From the NCBI GenBank assembly GCA_030640625.1, contig DAOWJB010000270.1:1-32970 (forward strand): 32,970 bases of DNA, read 5' to 3'. A model generated the notes under the pieces. It had not been told where the DNA came from. It saw only the letters and a list, made by a program, of their open reading frames with translations, and did no database searches. The DNA is from Bacteroides sp. GTDB taxonomy: Bacteria; Bacteroidota; Bacteroidia; Bacteroidales; SM23-62. Shown one piece after another: positions 3,131 to 24,321 of this stretch (position 1 is its first letter; the number at the start of each line of letters is the position of its first letter). The position numbers and the translations under genes are program-made.

Positions 3131-3922
3131 TTAGAAATCAGAATAGTCTGTATGATGAAGCAGGATGATATCAATCTCCGAAACATTGTTCTGGTATTCT
3201 TCCATGGAACTGATTTTTTCCCATACCGGATGTTCCCTGAATTTTGCCCAGTGCTCTTCTCGCGATTCCATATTGGAAAAACTTGTCATATACATAAGGT
3301 TGGGCATACGGCTTCCTGATAACACTTCTGCATAGAATACGGCATTGAATTCCAGTTTTTCAAAAAGGCTTACTTCCCCGCCTTCATTAAACATATGTAC
3401 TTTGTTGACCAGGGTATTCTCTGTGTAACTCTCATAACTGCGCAATTCATAGATTCTTTCTTCGGGTGGAGAATCCAGTTTAGGAACACTGGCTTGCGGC
3501 TGGTAATCGAAAGCATGCAATATTATCGATTCGAGACGTATGTATGGAGGATCATCATATGCTGCCTCCAGGTATGCCTTTCCGTCTGTATGATATGCCT
3601 TATCCAGTTCCAGTTTCCCCTCAAGCTGGGCAAATTGTTCAAGTGTTTTAAAGGGAATGAACACGTAAATCTTTTGTTCAGCTGCTTCATCACTTTCCAC
3701 GGGTTTAAACACACCCACATTCTCTATACCCGCCCTGTGCAGTGCTGGCAGGTAGGCTTCTTTCAGGTAAGTATCGATCCGGCCTTCCTGTGATGCGTCA
3801 AGGTAATGATAGATCCTGATCTGATAATACTCTTTAGTGGTCTTGGCAGCATTCACAGTTAACGGAATGATGAATATCAAACTGCACAAAATATGGCATA
3901 ATAGTTGGACCGGTCTTTTCAT
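3131..3922 (-). CDS. NIPSNAP family protein, putatively secreted
   Basis: N-terminal signal-like segment MKRPVQLLCHILCSLIFIIPLTVNA; two ferredoxin-like repeats 'YYQIRIYHYLDASQEGRIDTYLKEAYLPALHRAGIENVGVFKP' and 'RIYELRSYESYTENTLVNKVHMFNEGGEVSLFEKLEFNAVFYAEVLSG'. Confidence 0.85.
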   Translation of the reverse strand: MKRPVQLLCHILCSLIFIIPLTVNAAKTTKEYYQIRIYHYLDASQEGRIDTYLKEAYLPALHRAGIENVGVFKPVESDEAAEQKIYVFIPFKTLEQFAQLEGKLELDKAYHTDGKAYLEAAYDDPPYIRLESIILHAFDYQPQASVPKLDSPPEERIYELRSYESYTENTLVNKVHMFNEGGEVSLFEKLEFNAVFYAEVLSGSRMPNLMYMTSFSNMESREEHWAKFREHPVWEKISSMEEYQNNVSEIDIILLHHTDYSDF

Positions 3923-4053: not shown

Positions 4054-4404
4054 ATGAGAAAGTTTGTGATGATAGTATTGTGCCCTGTTTTCCTGTTGTC
4101 CGCAACGGCACAGGAACCCACGAAATGGCGTGGGCCCTCGGCCAACGGTATTTATCCTGAAAAGGGCTTGTTAAGGGAATGGCCTGAGGATGGACCTGAA
4201 ATGCTGTGGCATTATGAGGGACTTGGTGAGGGATTCTCTTCCCCCGTAATGGCCAATGGAAAGATTTATGTTTCTGGAATGGTAGATAATACCGGGCATA
4301 TTTTTGTCCTCAGTGATGAGGGGTTGTTCATGGATCAATTTACATATGGAGAGGAGTTCCATGTGAGGCATGGCAATGTTCTGATGGCTTTTAAAATTAA
4401 ATAA
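4054..4404 (+). pseudogene. Miniature PQQ-like beta-propeller protein (116 aa) with an internal in-frame deletion relative to the neighbouring paralogue
   Basis: ATG at 4054 (MRKFVMIVLCPVFLLSATAQEPTKWRGPSANGIYPEKG...). It aligns with the N-terminus of the 4431-5636 protein up to 'YGE(E/D)FH', then jumps to the paralogue's last residues (VRHGNVLMAFKIK vs VRHGSVLMAYKIK). Confidence 0.8.
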
Positions 4405-4430
4405 TCTAAGAAACCACAAATAGTTTGATC

Positions 4431-5636
4431 ATGAAAAGAATTTTTATTGCATTAGGAATTATATTAAGTACACTGGCATCGGCCCAGGAACCAACACAGT
4501 GGAGAGGACCTGAAAGCAAAGGGATCTATCCGGATAAGGGGCTGTTGAAGGAGTGGCCTGCTGAAGGACCTGAAATGCTCTGGCATGCTGACGGACTGGG
4601 TCAGGGGCATTCATCCCCTGTTTTCGCCAAGGGCAAAATTTATATTACTGGTATGCTAAATAATATTGGACATATTTTTGTTCTCAGCAATGAAGGCAAG
4701 TTATTAAGTAAGTTTCCATATGGTGAGGATTTCCATGAAAGTTACGCGGGATCCCGTTCATCTCCCACTGTTGTTGGAGACCTGCTGTATGTTCTGAGTG
4801 GCCAGGGATTATTGGTCTGCATGAATGTCCATGATGGCAAGATCCAGTGGTCCAAAAACCTGTTCAGGGATTTTGACGGGAGGAACATTACCTGGGGGAT
4901 CACAGAAACGGTTTTAGTGGATGGGAATACTGTGTATTGTACCCCGGGTGGATCAAAACATAATGTGGTGGCATTGGACCGTTTTACAGGAAATGTAAAG
5001 TGGACAAGCAGGGGCAAAGGAAATCTTTCAGCTTATTGTACACCGCTGCTGGTAAATCTGCCTGCTGCAAAGGTCCTTGTCACACATACCGCCAGTAATA
5101 TAATTGGGATAAATGCTTCCGATGGTACCCTATTGTGGTCACAACATCATCCTAACCAGTACTCGGTACACGCCAATACACCCATTTATCATGATGGAGC
5201 AATATATTGTTTCAGTGGATACGGGCGAGGAGGTGTAATGATCGAGCTAGATAACAGGGGAAACAAGCTGAATATTAAATGGACCGAAAAAAGCCTGGAC
5301 AGCCGGATGGGAGGCGCGGTTCTTATCGATGGATACATTTATGGATCCGGCGATAATGGACGCAGCTGGAAATGCCTTGACTGGAACACAGGGAAAAAAC
5401 AATATGAGTCCACACTCATTGGAAATGGTGTGGTTATCTTTGCCGACGGAATGTTGTTTTGTTATAGCCAGCGTGGAGAGCTTGCCATGGTACGGGCAAA
5501 TCCTGATCAGTTCAAAGTGGCTGGCAAGACCAGGGTAAGCATGGGCTCGGGTCAGCACTGGGCACATCCGGTGATTGACAATGGACGCCTGTTTGTCAGG
5601 CATGGCAGTGTATTGATGGCCTATAAAATCAAATAA
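4431..5636 (+). CDS. PQQ-binding-like beta-propeller repeat protein, secreted
   Basis: Signal peptide MKRIFIALGIILSTLASAQ; repeats such as 'VVALDRFTGNVKWTSRG', 'IIGINASDGTLLWSQHH'. First ATG at 4431; the listed 4425 start is a TTG. Confidence 0.88.
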   Translation: MKRIFIALGIILSTLASAQEPTQWRGPESKGIYPDKGLLKEWPAEGPEMLWHADGLGQGHSSPVFAKGKIYITGMLNNIGHIFVLSNEGKLLSKFPYGEDFHESYAGSRSSPTVVGDLLYVLSGQGLLVCMNVHDGKIQWSKNLFRDFDGRNITWGITETVLVDGNTVYCTPGGSKHNVVALDRFTGNVKWTSRGKGNLSAYCTPLLVNLPAAKVLVTHTASNIIGINASDGTLLWSQHHPNQYSVHANTPIYHDGAIYCFSGYGRGGVMIELDNRGNKLNIKWTEKSLDSRMGGAVLIDGYIYGSGDNGRSWKCLDWNTGKKQYESTLIGNGVVIFADGMLFCYSQRGELAMVRANPDQFKVAGKTRVSMGSGQHWAHPVIDNGRLFVRHGSVLMAYKIK

Positions 5637-5646
5637 ATTCCAAGAA

Positions 5647-7002
5647 ATGTTTTCACGCATTCTTTGTGCCAGTTTGGTACTAGCATTCCTTTGCTTTCCG
5701 GAAATAACCGCGCAGACAGATTATAAGGAACAATGGCCCGGATTTCGGGGACCCTACGCAGTCGGCATTGTTGACAATGCCAATACACCCATAGAATGGA
5801 ATGCCGAGAGCGGAAAAAACATTAAATGGAAAACGAGGATCCCCGGACTGGGGCATTCATGTCCCGTGATCTGGGATGATTATCTTTTCGTAACAACCGC
5901 GGTCAGCGGCTCAGGAGAAGATTATCTGAAAGTTGGCCTGTATGGCGACATTGATATGGTTGATGATGAATCGGTCCACGAGTTTAAAGTGTATTGTCTC
6001 AATAAAAACACGGGTGAGATCATATGGGAACACCTTTCCCACAAAGGAGTGCCCAAGACCAAACGGCATACCAAATCCTCGCAGGCCAACTGTACCCCTG
6101 TCACGGATGGGAAACACCTGGTGGTGTATTTTGGTTCGGAGGGACTGTTCTGTTATGATCTGAAAGGGAAATTGCTATGGCAAAAGGACCTTGGTGTGAT
6201 CAATGCCGGACCATATACCGAGCCGGATGTGGAATGGGGAATCGCCAGTTCACCGGTAATACATAAAGAGAAGATCATTATTCAATGTGATGTCACCGGG
6301 GAGAATTTCCTGGCCTTGTTCGACCTGGAAAACGGAGAGGAGATCTGGCGGACACACAGGGATGAGGTATCAACATGGTGTACACCGGCCATATATGAAA
6401 AAAACGGCAGGACACAGATCATCGTCAACGGATTTAAGCATATGGGTGGCTATGATTTTGATACAGGCAAGGAGATATGGAAGATGAGCGGAGGAGGTGA
6501 CGCACCAGTCCCAACGCCGGTCATTGCACATGAACTGATTTTTCTGAACAATGCACATGGCAGGTACTCACCCATTTACGTCGTGAAGCCTGAGGCAAAA
6601 GGTGATATAACGCTGGACAAGGACAGTACTACAAATGAGTACATTGTCTGGAGCATCGAACGTGGCGGCGCCTACATGCAAACACCCCTGATCTATGGGG
6701 AATATCTCTATAATTTGCGGGGCAACGGTTCACTGAGCTGTTTTCATGCTACCACCGGGGAGTTAATGTATAAGCAGAGTCTCGGGGTCAGTGGCGGTGT
6801 GACTGCCTCAGGAATCGCCTCTGACGGAAAACTTTATTTTACCTCAGAAAATGGATATGTTTATGTAGTGAAAGCCGGTCCGGAATATGAACGCCTGGCC
6901 AAGAATAACATGGATGACATCTGCATGGCCACCCCGGCTATTTCAAAAGGGTGCATTTATTTCCGTACGGCAAAGTACCTGATTGCTGTTTCAGCGGAAT
7001 AG
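5647..7002 (+). CDS. PQQ-binding-like beta-propeller repeat protein, secreted
   Basis: Signal peptide MFSRILCASLVLAFLCFPEITAQ; 'WPGFRGPYAVGIVDNANTPIEWNAESGKNIKWKTRIPGLGHSCPVIW', 'VYCLNKNTGEIIWEHLSH', 'LALFDLENGEEIWRTH'. Confidence 0.9.
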   Translation: MFSRILCASLVLAFLCFPEITAQTDYKEQWPGFRGPYAVGIVDNANTPIEWNAESGKNIKWKTRIPGLGHSCPVIWDDYLFVTTAVSGSGEDYLKVGLYGDIDMVDDESVHEFKVYCLNKNTGEIIWEHLSHKGVPKTKRHTKSSQANCTPVTDGKHLVVYFGSEGLFCYDLKGKLLWQKDLGVINAGPYTEPDVEWGIASSPVIHKEKIIIQCDVTGENFLALFDLENGEEIWRTHRDEVSTWCTPAIYEKNGRTQIIVNGFKHMGGYDFDTGKEIWKMSGGGDAPVPTPVIAHELIFLNNAHGRYSPIYVVKPEAKGDITLDKDSTTNEYIVWSIERGGAYMQTPLIYGEYLYNLRGNGSLSCFHATTGELMYKQSLGVSGGVTASGIASDGKLYFTSENGYVYVVKAGPEYERLAKNNMDDICMATPAISKGCIYFRTAKYLIAVSAE

Positions 7003-7044: not shown

Positions 7045-8301
7045 TTATTCGCTGATATTATAGGCGGTTACAGTCTCTCCGTGCCGGATATATAAGATAC
7101 TGTTACCGATAGTGGGATGGGCCCAATGCGGACCACTTCCCGGCTTATACTGGAAAGAACTGATTACCTGGAAATTATCAGGATTGGGATTGACCAGTCC
7201 CACAAATCCGCGCTTTTCCTCATAAACAATGAGTTTGCCATCAGCAGCAATAATGGAACCCTTATTGTTCCACTTTTTATCATACATGATTTCTCCGGTT
7301 TCCCAATTAATACATGCCCAATTCCCCTTGCTGTTATTGATCCAGGTAGATCCGTATATATAACCATCAAGGAGCACGATTCCTCCATGGTGTGTATCCA
7401 GCACAGGCTGCTTCCAGACCAGGCTGATCCCGGAACCGTCGGGCAACAGCTCAAACATGGCTGAGGTATGATTATAACCGCTTGTAATAAAAAGCCGGCC
7501 GTCTCGGTACAGTGGACTGACAGCATTGATATAGATACCCTGGGAATGACTGAGTGATTTATCCAGTTCGCTGTAATTGTATGTCCACAGTATTTCACCA
7601 TTTTCCGAGTCTACTCCAATTAAATAATTCCTCAATACATTGACAATGATCCTTTTATCCCCTTTTTTAATCAGAATGGGAGATACATATGCGGTAGTAT
7701 CATGAATTGTCTCGCTGGTCCAGATAGTCTCTCCGCTTTCTTTATCCAATGCAACCATGGTGGTTAAATGTCCAGCTGGCGTATAAATAACCTTATTATC
7801 AACCAATAATGGTGATTCAGCAATCTCCCATGTGGCATAAAGTCCTTTAAAACTTTCAAATGCATCTACATGCCATTTAATTTGTTGCTGTGAGGCATCC
7901 ACACAAACGACCTCTCCCCGTCCGCTTATGAGGTATACCTTGTCTCCCTCAACGGTAGGTGTGGCACGGGTCTCCTTGAAAGAGCGACGAGGGGACAGCC
8001 CATAGGGGATTTGCCATATGGGATTTCCGTTTGCTGCTTCAATGGCAGTCAAATATTCAATGCTATCTTTTCTGCCGGTTGCATAGATAATCCCATTGTA
8101 CACTGATAAGGATGAAAAACCTTTTCCGATTCCCTCCATTTTCCAGAGGAGATCGGGGCCCTCTTCTGCCCATTTATCCAGAAGGCCCTTATCGGGATAG
8201 ATCCCGTTCCGTTCCGGGCCACGCCATTGTGCAATGTCCTGCCCTGCAAGCAAATTGGGGAACAGAAAAAAAACAATCAGTAGATATCTGAATTTATTCA
8301 T
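7045..8301 (-). CDS. PQQ-binding-like beta-propeller repeat protein, secreted
   Basis: Signal peptide MNKFRYLLIVFFLFPNLLAG; 'AQWRGPERNGIYPDKGLLDKWAEEGPDLLWKMEGIGKGFSS', shared with the + strand paralogues. Confidence 0.9.
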   Translation of the reverse strand: MNKFRYLLIVFFLFPNLLAGQDIAQWRGPERNGIYPDKGLLDKWAEEGPDLLWKMEGIGKGFSSLSVYNGIIYATGRKDSIEYLTAIEAANGNPIWQIPYGLSPRRSFKETRATPTVEGDKVYLISGRGEVVCVDASQQQIKWHVDAFESFKGLYATWEIAESPLLVDNKVIYTPAGHLTTMVALDKESGETIWTSETIHDTTAYVSPILIKKGDKRIIVNVLRNYLIGVDSENGEILWTYNYSELDKSLSHSQGIYINAVSPLYRDGRLFITSGYNHTSAMFELLPDGSGISLVWKQPVLDTHHGGIVLLDGYIYGSTWINNSKGNWACINWETGEIMYDKKWNNKGSIIAADGKLIVYEEKRGFVGLVNPNPDNFQVISSFQYKPGSGPHWAHPTIGNSILYIRHGETVTAYNISE

Positions 8302-18908: not shown

Positions 18909-21900
18909 ATGGGATCAAAAAGCATATCCATGAAAAGTAATTATTCCGGACATATGTTCATGCGTATTTTGATTACCATGATCCTCTGTTCTTTCCTGTT
19001 CCCTCAGTGTCAAAACAGGAAATCCTCCCGGCAGGATAAGCAGGATGAAATACAAAAGAAAACCGATGATGAGTTACGCTCAGAAAAGATATTAACCGCC
19101 AGAACCATGGGACTGGCTTACCTGGAGGAAGATAAACTGGATGAGGCGGCAAGTGAATTCCAAAAACTCATCGAACTGGCGCCCCGGGAGGCTATCGGTT
19201 ATGCTAACCTGGGACTGGTATACCTCAGAATGGGTCGATATGATGAGGCTGAAAAACAATTGCTGCAAGCCCGGGAACTGGACCCTGGTGATCCTGACAT
19301 CCGTCTGAACCTGGCCAAGGTTTACGAATACCAGAATAAGTCGGATAAGTCCATTATGGAGCTGAAAAAAAGCATTGAGATTGATCCAGGGCATGTACAG
19401 ACGCTTTACACCCTGGCAGAGATCTATGGGCGGGCTTCAGATAAATACTCCATGCAGCAGTGGGAGAAATACATGAAAAAAACGGTGGTAGCCTCACCCG
19501 GTAACATTGTACCCCGCCTGCATCTGATCGAGATGCTGCTTCGGAATGGTAAAACCGATGAAACGTTGGGCCAACTGGAAGAACTTCAGCGTGTATTCCC
19601 GGACCTGCCGGCAGAGGTGCTGACCTGGTACAACGGTGCCCTGGAGTCCCTGCATGCATCAGATACCGGGGAGGCGCTGACCAAAATAATGGTATTTCAT
19701 AACACCCTGAAACTTACCAATCAATATCACATCGGGGTTGCAGAACTTAAAGGATCTTCGGGCTCCTCTATGGGTGTTCCGGTTTTCTCCTTTTCTGCAC
19801 GTGCACCCATATACGTTCCGGATGGGGTCACCATCCTGGAAACCATTCGCTTTACAGATGTTACCGCTGCTGCGGGTCTGGAATTGTCCTCCCTTACCGG
19901 GGAAAAATCCGGACAAGCGGATGATAAGAGATCACCCGGGGGATCATCTGAAGGAAATCCTGGCATCCCGGGACATGCAAAATATAAAACACACCTGGCA
20001 TTGGGTGACCTGGATCATGACGGTGACCAGGATCTGTATCTGGGGACATGGCTGGAAGATGAATCCCGTTACCGGCATTTTCTTTTTCTGGCAGATATGG
20101 GCAGGTTCACGGATATTTCCAAAAAGGCCGGTCTCAGTCATAAGGGACCTGAAACCAATGCCCTGTTTGCAGATTATGACAATGATGGCTGGCTTGATCT
20201 GCTGGTGATCAGGGAAGGATCATGCATCCTCTATAAAAGTATTACTGAAGGTAAATACAGAAATCTTACCGGGAAAGCAGATCTTTCCGGAAACGGAAAG
20301 GGGATTAAAGCCCTCTTTTTCGATATGGACCATGAAGGCGATCTTGATTTATTTGTTGCCGGATCAGGCAAAAACAGTCTTTCCAGGAACAACGGGGACG
20401 GCAGCTTTACCGATCAATCCGCCTATTCAGGCCTGCAGGGCGGGGAAACCATAAGCCTGGATGCCTGTTTCGGGGATTTTGATGACGACGGTGACATTGA
20501 CCTTTTCGTATTGAATCAGGACGGGGATAATGAACTTTATTTCAACCAGCGGGAAGGAAAGTTCAGCAATGTAACCGGTGAAAGCGGTCTTTCCGGTTTA
20601 CAAGGTTCAGTCGCTGTTGCATGCGGTGATTATAATAATGACGGCTGCCTCGACCTCTTTATTGCAGCCATGCAACCTGGTCAATATGAGCTGTTCAGGA
20701 ACAGGGGGAACGGATCCTTTCAGAAGGATGAGTCGTTTGCGGAAAACCTGGACATTCTCAGAAATACCCAGGCAGCGGATGTTTCGTTCTTTGATTTTGA
20801 CAATGATGGTTACCTTGACCTTCTGATATCCGGCAAATCATCCGAATCAGCACAGAGAGGAATTCATTTATTGCATAATGAGGGGGATGGAATATTCGAG
20901 GATGTCTCACATTTATTGCCCGAAGATTTATTGGGTGGGGGTGAAATAGGGATCGCCGATTACAATGAGGATGGAGACCTGGATATATTCCTGGCCGGGA
21001 AAGACGGGGGTATTCACCTGCTTCGTAACGACGGTGGTAATGCCAACCACCGGCTGCAGGTACGCCTGGTCGGTGTGAAAGCAGGCAGTGGCAAGAACAA
21101 TCATTTTGGGATCGGGACAAAGATTGAGGTGCGTGCAGGTGATCTTTACCAGATGAAGGTGGTTACCGAACCCGTTGTTCATTTTGGACTTGCACAGCGA
21201 TCTCGTGCGGATGTGGTTCGGATCCTCTGGACAAACGGTACACCGCAGAATATTTTTTCACCGGGTGTTGAACAGGACCTCGTAGAAGAACAGCAATTGA
21301 AAGGATCATGCCCTTTCCTCTACACCTTTGACGGTGAGCAATTTACCTTTGTAAAAGATATTATGTGGCACTCCGCCCTTGGCATGCCCCTGGGTATTAT
21401 GGGAGGCACTACTACCTATGGATTTTCAGAGGCCTCCATGGATTATATGAAAATACCGGGAAATAAACTCCGCCCCCGTGACGGCAAATACATCATCCAG
21501 ATAACGGAAGAATTATGGGAAACCATCTATCTTGACGAAGTTGAACTGATCGTACTGGACCACCCGGATACAATAGAGGTCCTGGTGAATGAAAAGTTTT
21601 CTCCTCCTCCATATCCGGAATACAGGATTTATCGTATTTCTGATAAGATCTTTCCCCTGTCTGCAAAGGACGGAAAGGGGAACGATGTTCTGGATATGCT
21701 CCTGGAAGAGGATGACAGATATGTTTCAAACTTCCTGAAAACAGGCTACCAGGGCATCACCGAGATGAGGGAGCTGATTCTCGATCCGGGACCGGTGGAA
21801 AATGCAGAGAATCTTCATCTCTTCCTTCATGGCTGGATCTTTCCAACAGATGCCAGCATCAATTATGCCATTGCCCAGTCAGGAAAAATTAAGGTTGCTA

Positions 21901-22625
21901 CTCCCAGTTTACAGGTAATAAACGGGGACGGAGAGTGGGAAACCGTGATTGAGAACCTTGGCTTTCCCGCCGGGAAATCCAAGACAATAATCGCAGATCT
22001 GGATGGGAAATTCCTTTCAGAAGACCACCGGATCAGGATAACTACCAATATGGAGATATACTGGGATCATGCATATTTCGCATACGATCTGCCAGAGGCA
22101 GCCCTGGAATACTCAAAGATAAAACCCATGGATGCCGACCATCATTACCGTGGATTCTCCAGGTTGTACCGGAAAGGTGGGAGGTACGGTCCCCATTGGT
22201 ATGATTATAATTCCGTAACGGATACCCCCCGCTGGAGGGACCTGTGCGGTTACTATACCAAGTATGGTGACGTTATTGAGCTTTTGGAGGATGCGGACAA
22301 TATGTACATTATAGCCAATGCAGGAGATGAGACAACCATTGTGTTTGACGCTGAGGAACTCAAGGAACTGCCGGAAGGCTGGAAAAGGGATTTTGTCATC
22401 CATACTGTGGGATGGGTGAAGGACGGAGATCTTAATACTGCCAGGGGACAGACGGTGGAACCACTGCCTTTCCATGGCATGAGTTCATATCCATACGGAG
22501 ATGATGAGTCCTATCCTGCTGACCGGGCGCACCGGCATTATCTGAAGAAGTATAATACAAGGGAGGTAAACACAGTGAACTTCCGGCAGGCCCTGCATAA
22601 TGGCTACGGAAAAGATGAAAGATAA
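18909..22625 (+). CDS. Large secreted TPR + VCBS/FG-GAP + ASPIC/UnbV-like protein with an extra C-terminal region
   Basis: Lipoprotein-like N-terminus 'MRILITMILCSFLFPQCQNRK'; TPRs 'AIGYANLGLVYLRMGRYDEAEKQLLQARELDPGDPDIRLNLAKVYEY'; Asp-rich loops DLDHDGDQD, DYDNDGWLD, DFDDDGDID, DYNNDGCLD, DFDNDGYLD, DYNEDGDLD; UnbV-like 'NANHRLQVRLVGVKAGSGKNNHFGIGTKIEVRAGDLYQMK...HFGLAQRSRADVVRILWTNG'. Confidence 0.88.
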   Translation: MGSKSISMKSNYSGHMFMRILITMILCSFLFPQCQNRKSSRQDKQDEIQKKTDDELRSEKILTARTMGLAYLEEDKLDEAASEFQKLIELAPREAIGYANLGLVYLRMGRYDEAEKQLLQARELDPGDPDIRLNLAKVYEYQNKSDKSIMELKKSIEIDPGHVQTLYTLAEIYGRASDKYSMQQWEKYMKKTVVASPGNIVPRLHLIEMLLRNGKTDETLGQLEELQRVFPDLPAEVLTWYNGALESLHASDTGEALTKIMVFHNTLKLTNQYHIGVAELKGSSGSSMGVPVFSFSARAPIYVPDGVTILETIRFTDVTAAAGLELSSLTGEKSGQADDKRSPGGSSEGNPGIPGHAKYKTHLALGDLDHDGDQDLYLGTWLEDESRYRHFLFLADMGRFTDISKKAGLSHKGPETNALFADYDNDGWLDLLVIREGSCILYKSITEGKYRNLTGKADLSGNGKGIKALFFDMDHEGDLDLFVAGSGKNSLSRNNGDGSFTDQSAYSGLQGGETISLDACFGDFDDDGDIDLFVLNQDGDNELYFNQREGKFSNVTGESGLSGLQGSVAVACGDYNNDGCLDLFIAAMQPGQYELFRNRGNGSFQKDESFAENLDILRNTQAADVSFFDFDNDGYLDLLISGKSSESAQRGIHLLHNEGDGIFEDVSHLLPEDLLGGGEIGIADYNEDGDLDIFLAGKDGGIHLLRNDGGNANHRLQVRLVGVKAGSGKNNHFGIGTKIEVRAGDLYQMKVVTEPVVHFGLAQRSRADVVRILWTNGTPQNIFSPGVEQDLVEEQQLKGSCPFLYTFDGEQFTFVKDIMWHSALGMPLGIMGGTTTYGFSEASMDYMKIPGNKLRPRDGKYIIQITEELWETIYLDEVELIVLDHPDTIEVLVNEKFSPPPYPEYRIYRISDKIFPLSAKDGKGNDVLDMLLEEDDRYVSNFLKTGYQGITEMRELILDPGPVENAENLHLFLHGWIFPTDASINYAIAQSGKIKVATPSLQVINGDGEWETVIENLGFPAGKSKTIIADLDGKFLSEDHRIRITTNMEIYWDHAYFAYDLPEAALEYSKIKPMDADHHYRGFSRLYRKGGRYGPHWYDYNSVTDTPRWRDLCGYYTKYGDVIELLEDADNMYIIANAGDETTIVFDAEELKELPEGWKRDFVIHTVGWVKDGDLNTARGQTVEPLPFHGMSSYPYGDDESYPADRAHRHYLKKYNTREVNTVNFRQALHNGYGKDER

Positions 22626-24321
22626 AGATATGAAAGGAAGCTGGAACAGGAAGGAGCCAGGATCCTGTCAACCAGATTTTTTATTGCTGTTTGCAGGGAT
22701 ATTGCTATTGTTCTCCTGTGGGGAGACCCCAAAAAAAGGCTTTACCGATGTGACTGTAGAAGCCGGGATAGATTTTCTGTATACATTCGGGGATGATACC
22801 TACGAAAACATACTCGAAAGCAGCGGATCCGGGATAAGCATTTTGGATTATAACAAGGATGCCTACCCTGACCTTTATATGATGAACGGAACCTGGCTGG
22901 AAGGGATCTCCGATCCGGAAGGCAGAGCGTTTGAAGGAACACCCAACCGCTTGTATGTTAACAGGGGGGACGGGACCTTTATCGAGTACGCTGAAGAAGC
23001 CGGTCTGGACGACCGGAACTGGAGCATGGCTGCAGGGCCCATCGATTACGACCTGGACGGGGATGAGGATCTGTATCTTTTAAACTATGGCCCGAATGTA
23101 TTATACCGCAATAATGGGGACGGAACGTATACCGATATAGCGGGATCAGTGGGACTCAGGGGACCTGAACTGCTGAATGGGTTTACAAAATGGAGTGTTG
23201 GCGCATCCTTCTGGGATGTGAACCTGGACGGCAGGCTGGATGTCATGGTGGGCAATTTTCTCGCCTTTGATCCCGAATATTTATCACCGACCACGCCGGA
23301 TCTGATGCCTCATCCGTCTGAATATATGGGACAGGCATCCATGCTGTACCTTCAGCAGGAAGACGGTACATTTATTGATGCCACGGAATCCTACGGCATG
23401 TACTACCCGGAATCCAAATGCATGGGACTTACCGTTTTTGATTATGATGATGACGGGGACCTGGACCTGTTTCAGGGGAATGATCATCAGTCAAATTTCC
23501 TGTTCAGGAATGAGGGGGATTATTTCAATGAAGTCGGAGTGAAAAGTGGCGTGGCTGTTAACAGCCATGGGCAGTCCACAGGATCCATGCACGGAGCCAT
23601 CGGCGATGTGGATGGGGACGGGTGGATAGACCTGCTGGTTCCGGACCTGAGATATGGGGCCCTGTATCGAAACCAGGGAAATGGATTGTTTGAGGACATT
23701 ACCGAAAAAAGTGGCCTGGCAGCCATATTAAATGGAATGGGGCAATGGGCAGCTGCCTTCATCGATTACGATAACGATGGGGACCTCGATATATTTTTCG
23801 CTAACGGGATTGCAGAAGAATTGATCGTACAACATCCCCTCCTGCTTGAAAATGACGGGAGTGGAAATTTTCGGAATGTCGGATCTGAACTTTGCCCGTA
23901 TTTTACAGAAAAACGGTCGGGCCGTGGAGCCGCAATATGGGATTATGATAATGATGGTGACCTTGATATTATCGTTTCTCATATTGATCTGCAGGCGACT
24001 GCAACCCTGCTCAGAAATGATTTGAAAAGCCGGAATCACTGGCTCGGGCTGAAACTTGAAGGGGAAAACGGACCCACAGCAACCATCGCAGCAAAGGTGC
24101 TTGTCCATCTCGGTGATAAGAAAAAGGTGTATATTAGCCAGTGGACCACCAACTACCTCTCCAATTCTGATCCCCGTATGCATATTGGTCTCGGAATGGA
24201 GGAGAAGGTCGACAGGCTGGAAGTATTCTGGTCTGACGGAAGCATGGATGAGATCTCAGATCTGCCCGGGATTGACCGGTATCTGAAGATAGTCCAGGGC
24301 AGGGGACTGGTTATGGAATAA
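22600..24321 (+). CDS. CRTAC1-type VCBS/FG-GAP + ASPIC/UnbV protein, putative lipoprotein
   Basis: Overlaps the upstream ORF by 26 bp; lipobox-like 'LLLFAGILLLFSCGETP'; loops DYDLDGDED, DVNLDGRLD, DYDDDGDLD, DVDGDGWID, DYDNDGDLD (twice); UnbV-like 'SRNHWLGLKLEGENGPTATIAAKVLVHLGDKKKVYISQWTTNYLSNSDPRMHIGLG'. Confidence 0.9.
   Translation: MATEKMKDKDMKGSWNRKEPGSCQPDFLLLFAGILLLFSCGETPKKGFTDVTVEAGIDFLYTFGDDTYENILESSGSGISILDYNKDAYPDLYMMNGTWLEGISDPEGRAFEGTPNRLYVNRGDGTFIEYAEEAGLDDRNWSMAAGPIDYDLDGDEDLYLLNYGPNVLYRNNGDGTYTDIAGSVGLRGPELLNGFTKWSVGASFWDVNLDGRLDVMVGNFLAFDPEYLSPTTPDLMPHPSEYMGQASMLYLQQEDGTFIDATESYGMYYPESKCMGLTVFDYDDDGDLDLFQGNDHQSNFLFRNEGDYFNEVGVKSGVAVNSHGQSTGSMHGAIGDVDGDGWIDLLVPDLRYGALYRNQGNGLFEDITEKSGLAAILNGMGQWAAAFIDYDNDGDLDIFFANGIAEELIVQHPLLLENDGSGNFRNVGSELCPYFTEKRSGRGAAIWDYDNDGDLDIIVSHIDLQATATLLRNDLKSRNHWLGLKLEGENGPTATIAAKVLVHLGDKKKVYISQWTTNYLSNSDPRMHIGLGMEEKVDRLEVFWSDGSMDEISDLPGIDRYLKIVQGRGLVME

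Follow-up and report, generated by a model that had tools for sequence, protein, structure and literature searches.

Length against homologues is one of the features by which truncated pseudogenes are recognized; the cut-off used in the Pseudofinder paper is 75% (PMC9336565). As for parts of a propeller expressed as separate chains, single-blade constructs of WD40 propellers were unfolded, and larger sub-propeller units formed homo-oligomers (PMC6805158). We found nothing specific in the literature on secreted propeller genes reduced by internal deletion to a mini-gene.

Here we describe a case from a contig of 32 970 nt of Bacteroides sp. (assembly GCA_030640625.1, contig DAOWJB010000270.1); the whole stretch of DNA analysed is referred to as the window. 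An open reading frame of 116 codons, the mini-ORF, is located immediately upstream of the propeller gene PQQ1. We characterize it, with a probability of roughly 0.85, as a truncated pseudogene-like remnant of a tandem duplicate of a PQQ1-type gene, which underwent an in-frame internal deletion in the lineage of the window. Such an event most likely represents ordinary birth-and-death evolution. The features considered are as follows.

4054..4404, plus strand: mini-ORF, 116 aa, probably an internally deleted tandem copy of a PQQ1-type (BamB-like) propeller gene
4054..4110, plus strand: signal peptide region, ~19 residues, hydrophobic, ending in ...SATA before QEPT (from the sequence, a model helix at residues 3-16 and the homologous position in PQQ1)
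4111..4362, plus strand: retained N-terminal section with the WRGP motif, the N-terminal closing strand and complete blade 1 (from alignment and models)
4362..4363, no strand: deletion junction CAT/GTG, exact point ambiguous by 1-3 bases; ~286 codons absent in comparison with PQQ1
4363..4404, plus strand: retained last 13 codons and stop (VRHGNVLMAFKIK), last strand of blade 8
4431..5636, plus strand: PQQ1, full-length paralogue of 401 aa, eight-bladed PQQ_2/BamB-like propeller by its model
5647..7002, plus strand: PQQ2, more distant propeller of 451 aa, next gene of the same cluster
7045..8301, minus strand: PQQ3, propeller of 418 aa, convergent
3131..3922, minus strand: NIPSNAP-domain protein with a signal-peptide-like start, divergent neighbour

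The frame of the mini-ORF, open from its ATG through the 116 residues encoded by 4054-4404, runs stop-free upstream to position 3874; the signal peptide begins at the ATG at 4054. Residues 3-106 of the mini protein aligned to PQQ1 with E-value 2e-43 and 60% identity. In the multiple alignment residues 1-103, comprising the signal peptide and the first blade, corresponded to PQQ1 residues 1-102; the C-terminal 13 residues, VRHGNVLMAFKIK, corresponded to PQQ1 residues 389-401, with 11 of 13 identical. The two-ended match is far beyond chance. A sequence-only reading of the locus had pointed to this match with the adjacent paralogue, to preservation of the frame across a gap of about 285 codons and to retention of the first blade together with the closing C-terminal strand; all three proposals agree with the alignment and, for the last one, with the structural models. 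The tail, for which 12 residues had been claimed, has 13 in the alignment.

Within the retained section the mini protein has every residue that shows no or almost no variation in the alignment, GC3 is 0.47 as against 0.45 in PQQ1, and the protein branch is not long in the tree. With an open frame, an intact signal peptide and conserved residues, one could think of a functional minimal propeller fragment, still expressed and assembling with itself or with PQQ1, an explanation that we consider improbable. The kept frame, the conserved residues, the similar GC3 and the branch length also fit a recent deletion. Pairwise comparison of the mini-ORF and PQQ1 over the retained section gave dN of 0.21 and dS of 1.40; most of this divergence is probably older than the deletion. 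In a home-made two-ratio codon model omega was 0.24 on the mini branch versus 0.06 elsewhere, with no significant gain over one ratio (2dlnL 1.46). A value of 0.24 is compatible with constraint on a functional fragment, but omega of 1 was equally acceptable on the same branch (profile 2dlnL 0.36). With pairwise dS of 1.4 or more, synonymous sites are almost saturated, and the branch dN/dS test therefore has no power here.

The AlphaFold model of PQQ1 (mean pLDDT 89, pTM 0.87) resembles solved BamB chains (Foldseek, E-value down to 3e-17), and the protein matches Pfam PQQ_2 with E-value 3e-25. Its score against the BamB equivalog, 51.6 bits, is far under the cut-off of 285.2, thus PQQ1 is not BamB proper. 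The model appears to have eight blades, as counted from the strand list, and the N-terminal strand 49-53 seems to close the last of them. In PQQ1 numbering, the last strand of blade 1 reaches residue 99, the junction follows residue 102 and the final strand spans residues 394-399. Relative to PQQ1, the mini protein lacks blades 2-7 and the opening portion of blade 8; it has kept blade 1, the closing strand at the N-terminus and the strand that ends blade 8. Its own model is of low overall confidence (mean pLDDT 76, pTM 0.59); the retained blade reached pLDDT >90, a value to be read with the caution that the alignment supplied to AlphaFold was one of full-length relatives. One blade and two further strands, versus eight blades in PQQ1, do not make a closed eight-bladed propeller. 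Comparison of the mini model with solved structures produced no significant match, and in searches of Pfam and NCBIfam no family was found at E-value 0.001 (the best value, 0.12, was to another propeller model).

The confident prediction of the retained blade, along with the homo-oligomers formed by some multi-blade propeller fragments (PMC6805158), could be taken in favour of a functional fragment. The lack of a significant match of the mini model to solved structures argues against it, as does the unfolded state of one-blade constructs in the same published work. Because single-blade WD40 constructs did not fold, we regard the mini-ORF as a remnant of recent date that most likely has no function of its own. 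A more specific version, in which the in-frame deletion made a new small secreted protein of one blade and two closing strands, expressed and capping or oligomerising with PQQ1, is in our estimate highly improbable. If the mini product were stable, it would amount to a natural experiment on the survival of one-blade fragments.

Against a functional fragment, no conserved mini-gene was observed among the matches listed for relatives. We used the mini protein as a query against 99 relatives and then against 393 genomes of the order, with ~150 matches listed for the order; matches were found in 20 of the 99 relatives and in 72 of the 393 genomes (the latter at E-value 1e-8). Among the matches listed, all except the one in the window were situated in open frames of ~300 aa or more, apart from those cut by contig ends. 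The proposal of the sequence-only reading to look for similar internally deleted genes in relatives thus yielded none, either in the 99 relatives or among the ~150 matches listed for the order. Four short frames in relatives, of 126 aa (G075:C165), 270 aa (G001:C243) and 54 and 65 aa (both in G004), were rejected as cut by contig ends. Viral contigs contained no relative. Named close relatives of the mini-ORF are found in metagenome genomes of Prolixibacteraceae and other Bacteroidales.

Tandem copies are common in these genomes, some of them in a broken state. In one genome (G013:C19, locus L015, 713-1818, minus strand) a tandem copy is split into frames of 355 aa and 57 aa, apparently by a frameshift, which could be a sequencing error; in another genome (G236:C183:11070-11369, plus strand) a PQQ1-type copy contains one in-frame TAG.

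The most informative comparison is with G002, a genome of the same genus. There, a long PQQ copy, PQQ1 (80% identical) and PQQ2 (82%) follow each other on one strand, and further along are PQQ3 (73%) and the sigma factor (83%). The upstream copy occupies the slot of the mini-ORF; at least 226 C-terminal residues are present before the contig ends, and it is apparently full-length, its N-terminal part being beyond the contig end. The 3' flanks of this copy and of the mini-ORF start alike (TAATC...GAAA), and the distance from the stop to PQQ1 is about equal for the two. In trees, the N-terminal part of the mini protein branches outside the G000/G002 pair of PQQ1 proteins (support 88), and the C-terminal part of the G002 upstream copy also branches outside the PQQ1 pair (support 95); searching the window's genome with this copy gave PQQ1 as the best match, at 58%. 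The slot and the trees are read most parsimoniously as a single old duplication and a later deletion in the lineage of the window. The last 42 bases of the mini-ORF have seven differences from the G002 copy and seven from PQQ1, so that the origin of this end is not told apart. In G003, PQQ1 comes directly after an FtsX-type gene, with no extra copy; the NIPSNAP relative of that genome is elsewhere, on contig C58, and in the window the NIPSNAP-domain gene (3131-3922, minus strand) separates the FtsX-type gene from the PQQ cluster.

The presence of a long copy in this slot in G002 could also mean that the deletion is an assembly artefact, with two copies or strains collapsed and a full-length copy present in the organism. 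Tandem paralogues are hard to assemble, and the metagenome-derived genome of the window is fragmented (352 contigs, 90% complete). Still, k-mers of at least 11 bases that cross the junction occur nowhere else in the window, and the longest exact stretch common to the mini-ORF and PQQ1 is 14 bases, which makes collapse by a k-mer assembler unlikely. Moreover, neither the missing middle nor a full-length orthologue of the G002 upstream copy was found on other contigs of the window's genome. We regard an artefact as very improbable.

The mini-ORF opens a row of three closely spaced genes on the same strand, with gaps of 26 bases to PQQ1 and 10 bases to PQQ2 (the PQQ1 start is taken as the ATG at 4431; the TTG at 4425 is also possible). 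This arrangement, along with the similar distance from stop to PQQ1 in G002, would agree with the mini-ORF being kept as an operon leader, whose translation leaves expression of PQQ1 and PQQ2 undisturbed, so that an in-frame deletion was favoured. Such a role, compatible with a remnant, seems rather unlikely to us; in-frame joining has a one-in-three chance anyway, and no full match to a Bacteroidota-type promoter was found upstream of the mini-ORF. A generic promoter and terminator scan around the mini-ORF produced nothing informative, and no Rfam family was detected near it. Elsewhere in the window (18909-24321, plus strand) two large adjoining genes resemble, judging from translations alone, FG-GAP/ASPIC-UnbV repeat proteins, the first one with TPR-like repeats.

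The remnant most likely originated in the following way. Tandem duplication of a full-length PQQ1-type gene probably preceded the divergence of the window's species from G002. In the lineage of the window the upstream copy then probably lost ~860 bp, presumably by illegitimate recombination, given a junction without long homology. The deletion being in frame, the start, the signal peptide and blade 1 were left together with the last strand; the frame may have been kept by the one-in-three chance or since the downstream genes stay undisturbed. Any protein made from the mini-ORF would be exported, with unfolding or degradation as its most likely fate, and the intact downstream PQQ1 presumably carries the function; the start region of the mini-ORF may still act as a 5' leader of the cluster. 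The sequence-only reading had considered a decaying duplicate, a suggestion supported by the long copy in the G002 slot, by the absence of another mini-gene among the order matches listed and by the breaking of other copies. Its other suggestion, a minimal secreted propeller piece that is still expressed, seems improbable. It had also named, as evidence against its proposal, relatives with only full-length copies together with a silent mini-ORF; one half of this, long copies in relatives, was indeed observed.

The mini-ORF cleanly illustrates how birth-and-death evolution proceeds in tandem propeller arrays of Bacteroidota. It also warns that an open frame headed by a signal peptide is in some cases no more than what a deletion has left. 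In comparison with the eight-bladed PQQ_2/BamB-like propellers (PF13360), it is derived from such a gene, the parent paralogue PQQ1 matching the family, but has neither blades 2-7 nor a family match of its own. With the PkwA and WRAP constructs of WD40 sub-propellers (PMC6805158) it shares the property of being a propeller part on a separate chain; the constructs that assembled were multi-blade, whereas the mini protein has one blade and two strands and belongs to another family. Truncated pseudogenes as judged by length in Pseudofinder (PMC9336565) offer a further comparison: with 116 aa against ~400 aa in homologues, and at least 226 aa in the G002 slot, it has ~29% of homologue length, far under the 75% cut-off, but it differs from them in carrying no frameshift or stop and in having both ends kept by an in-frame deletion.
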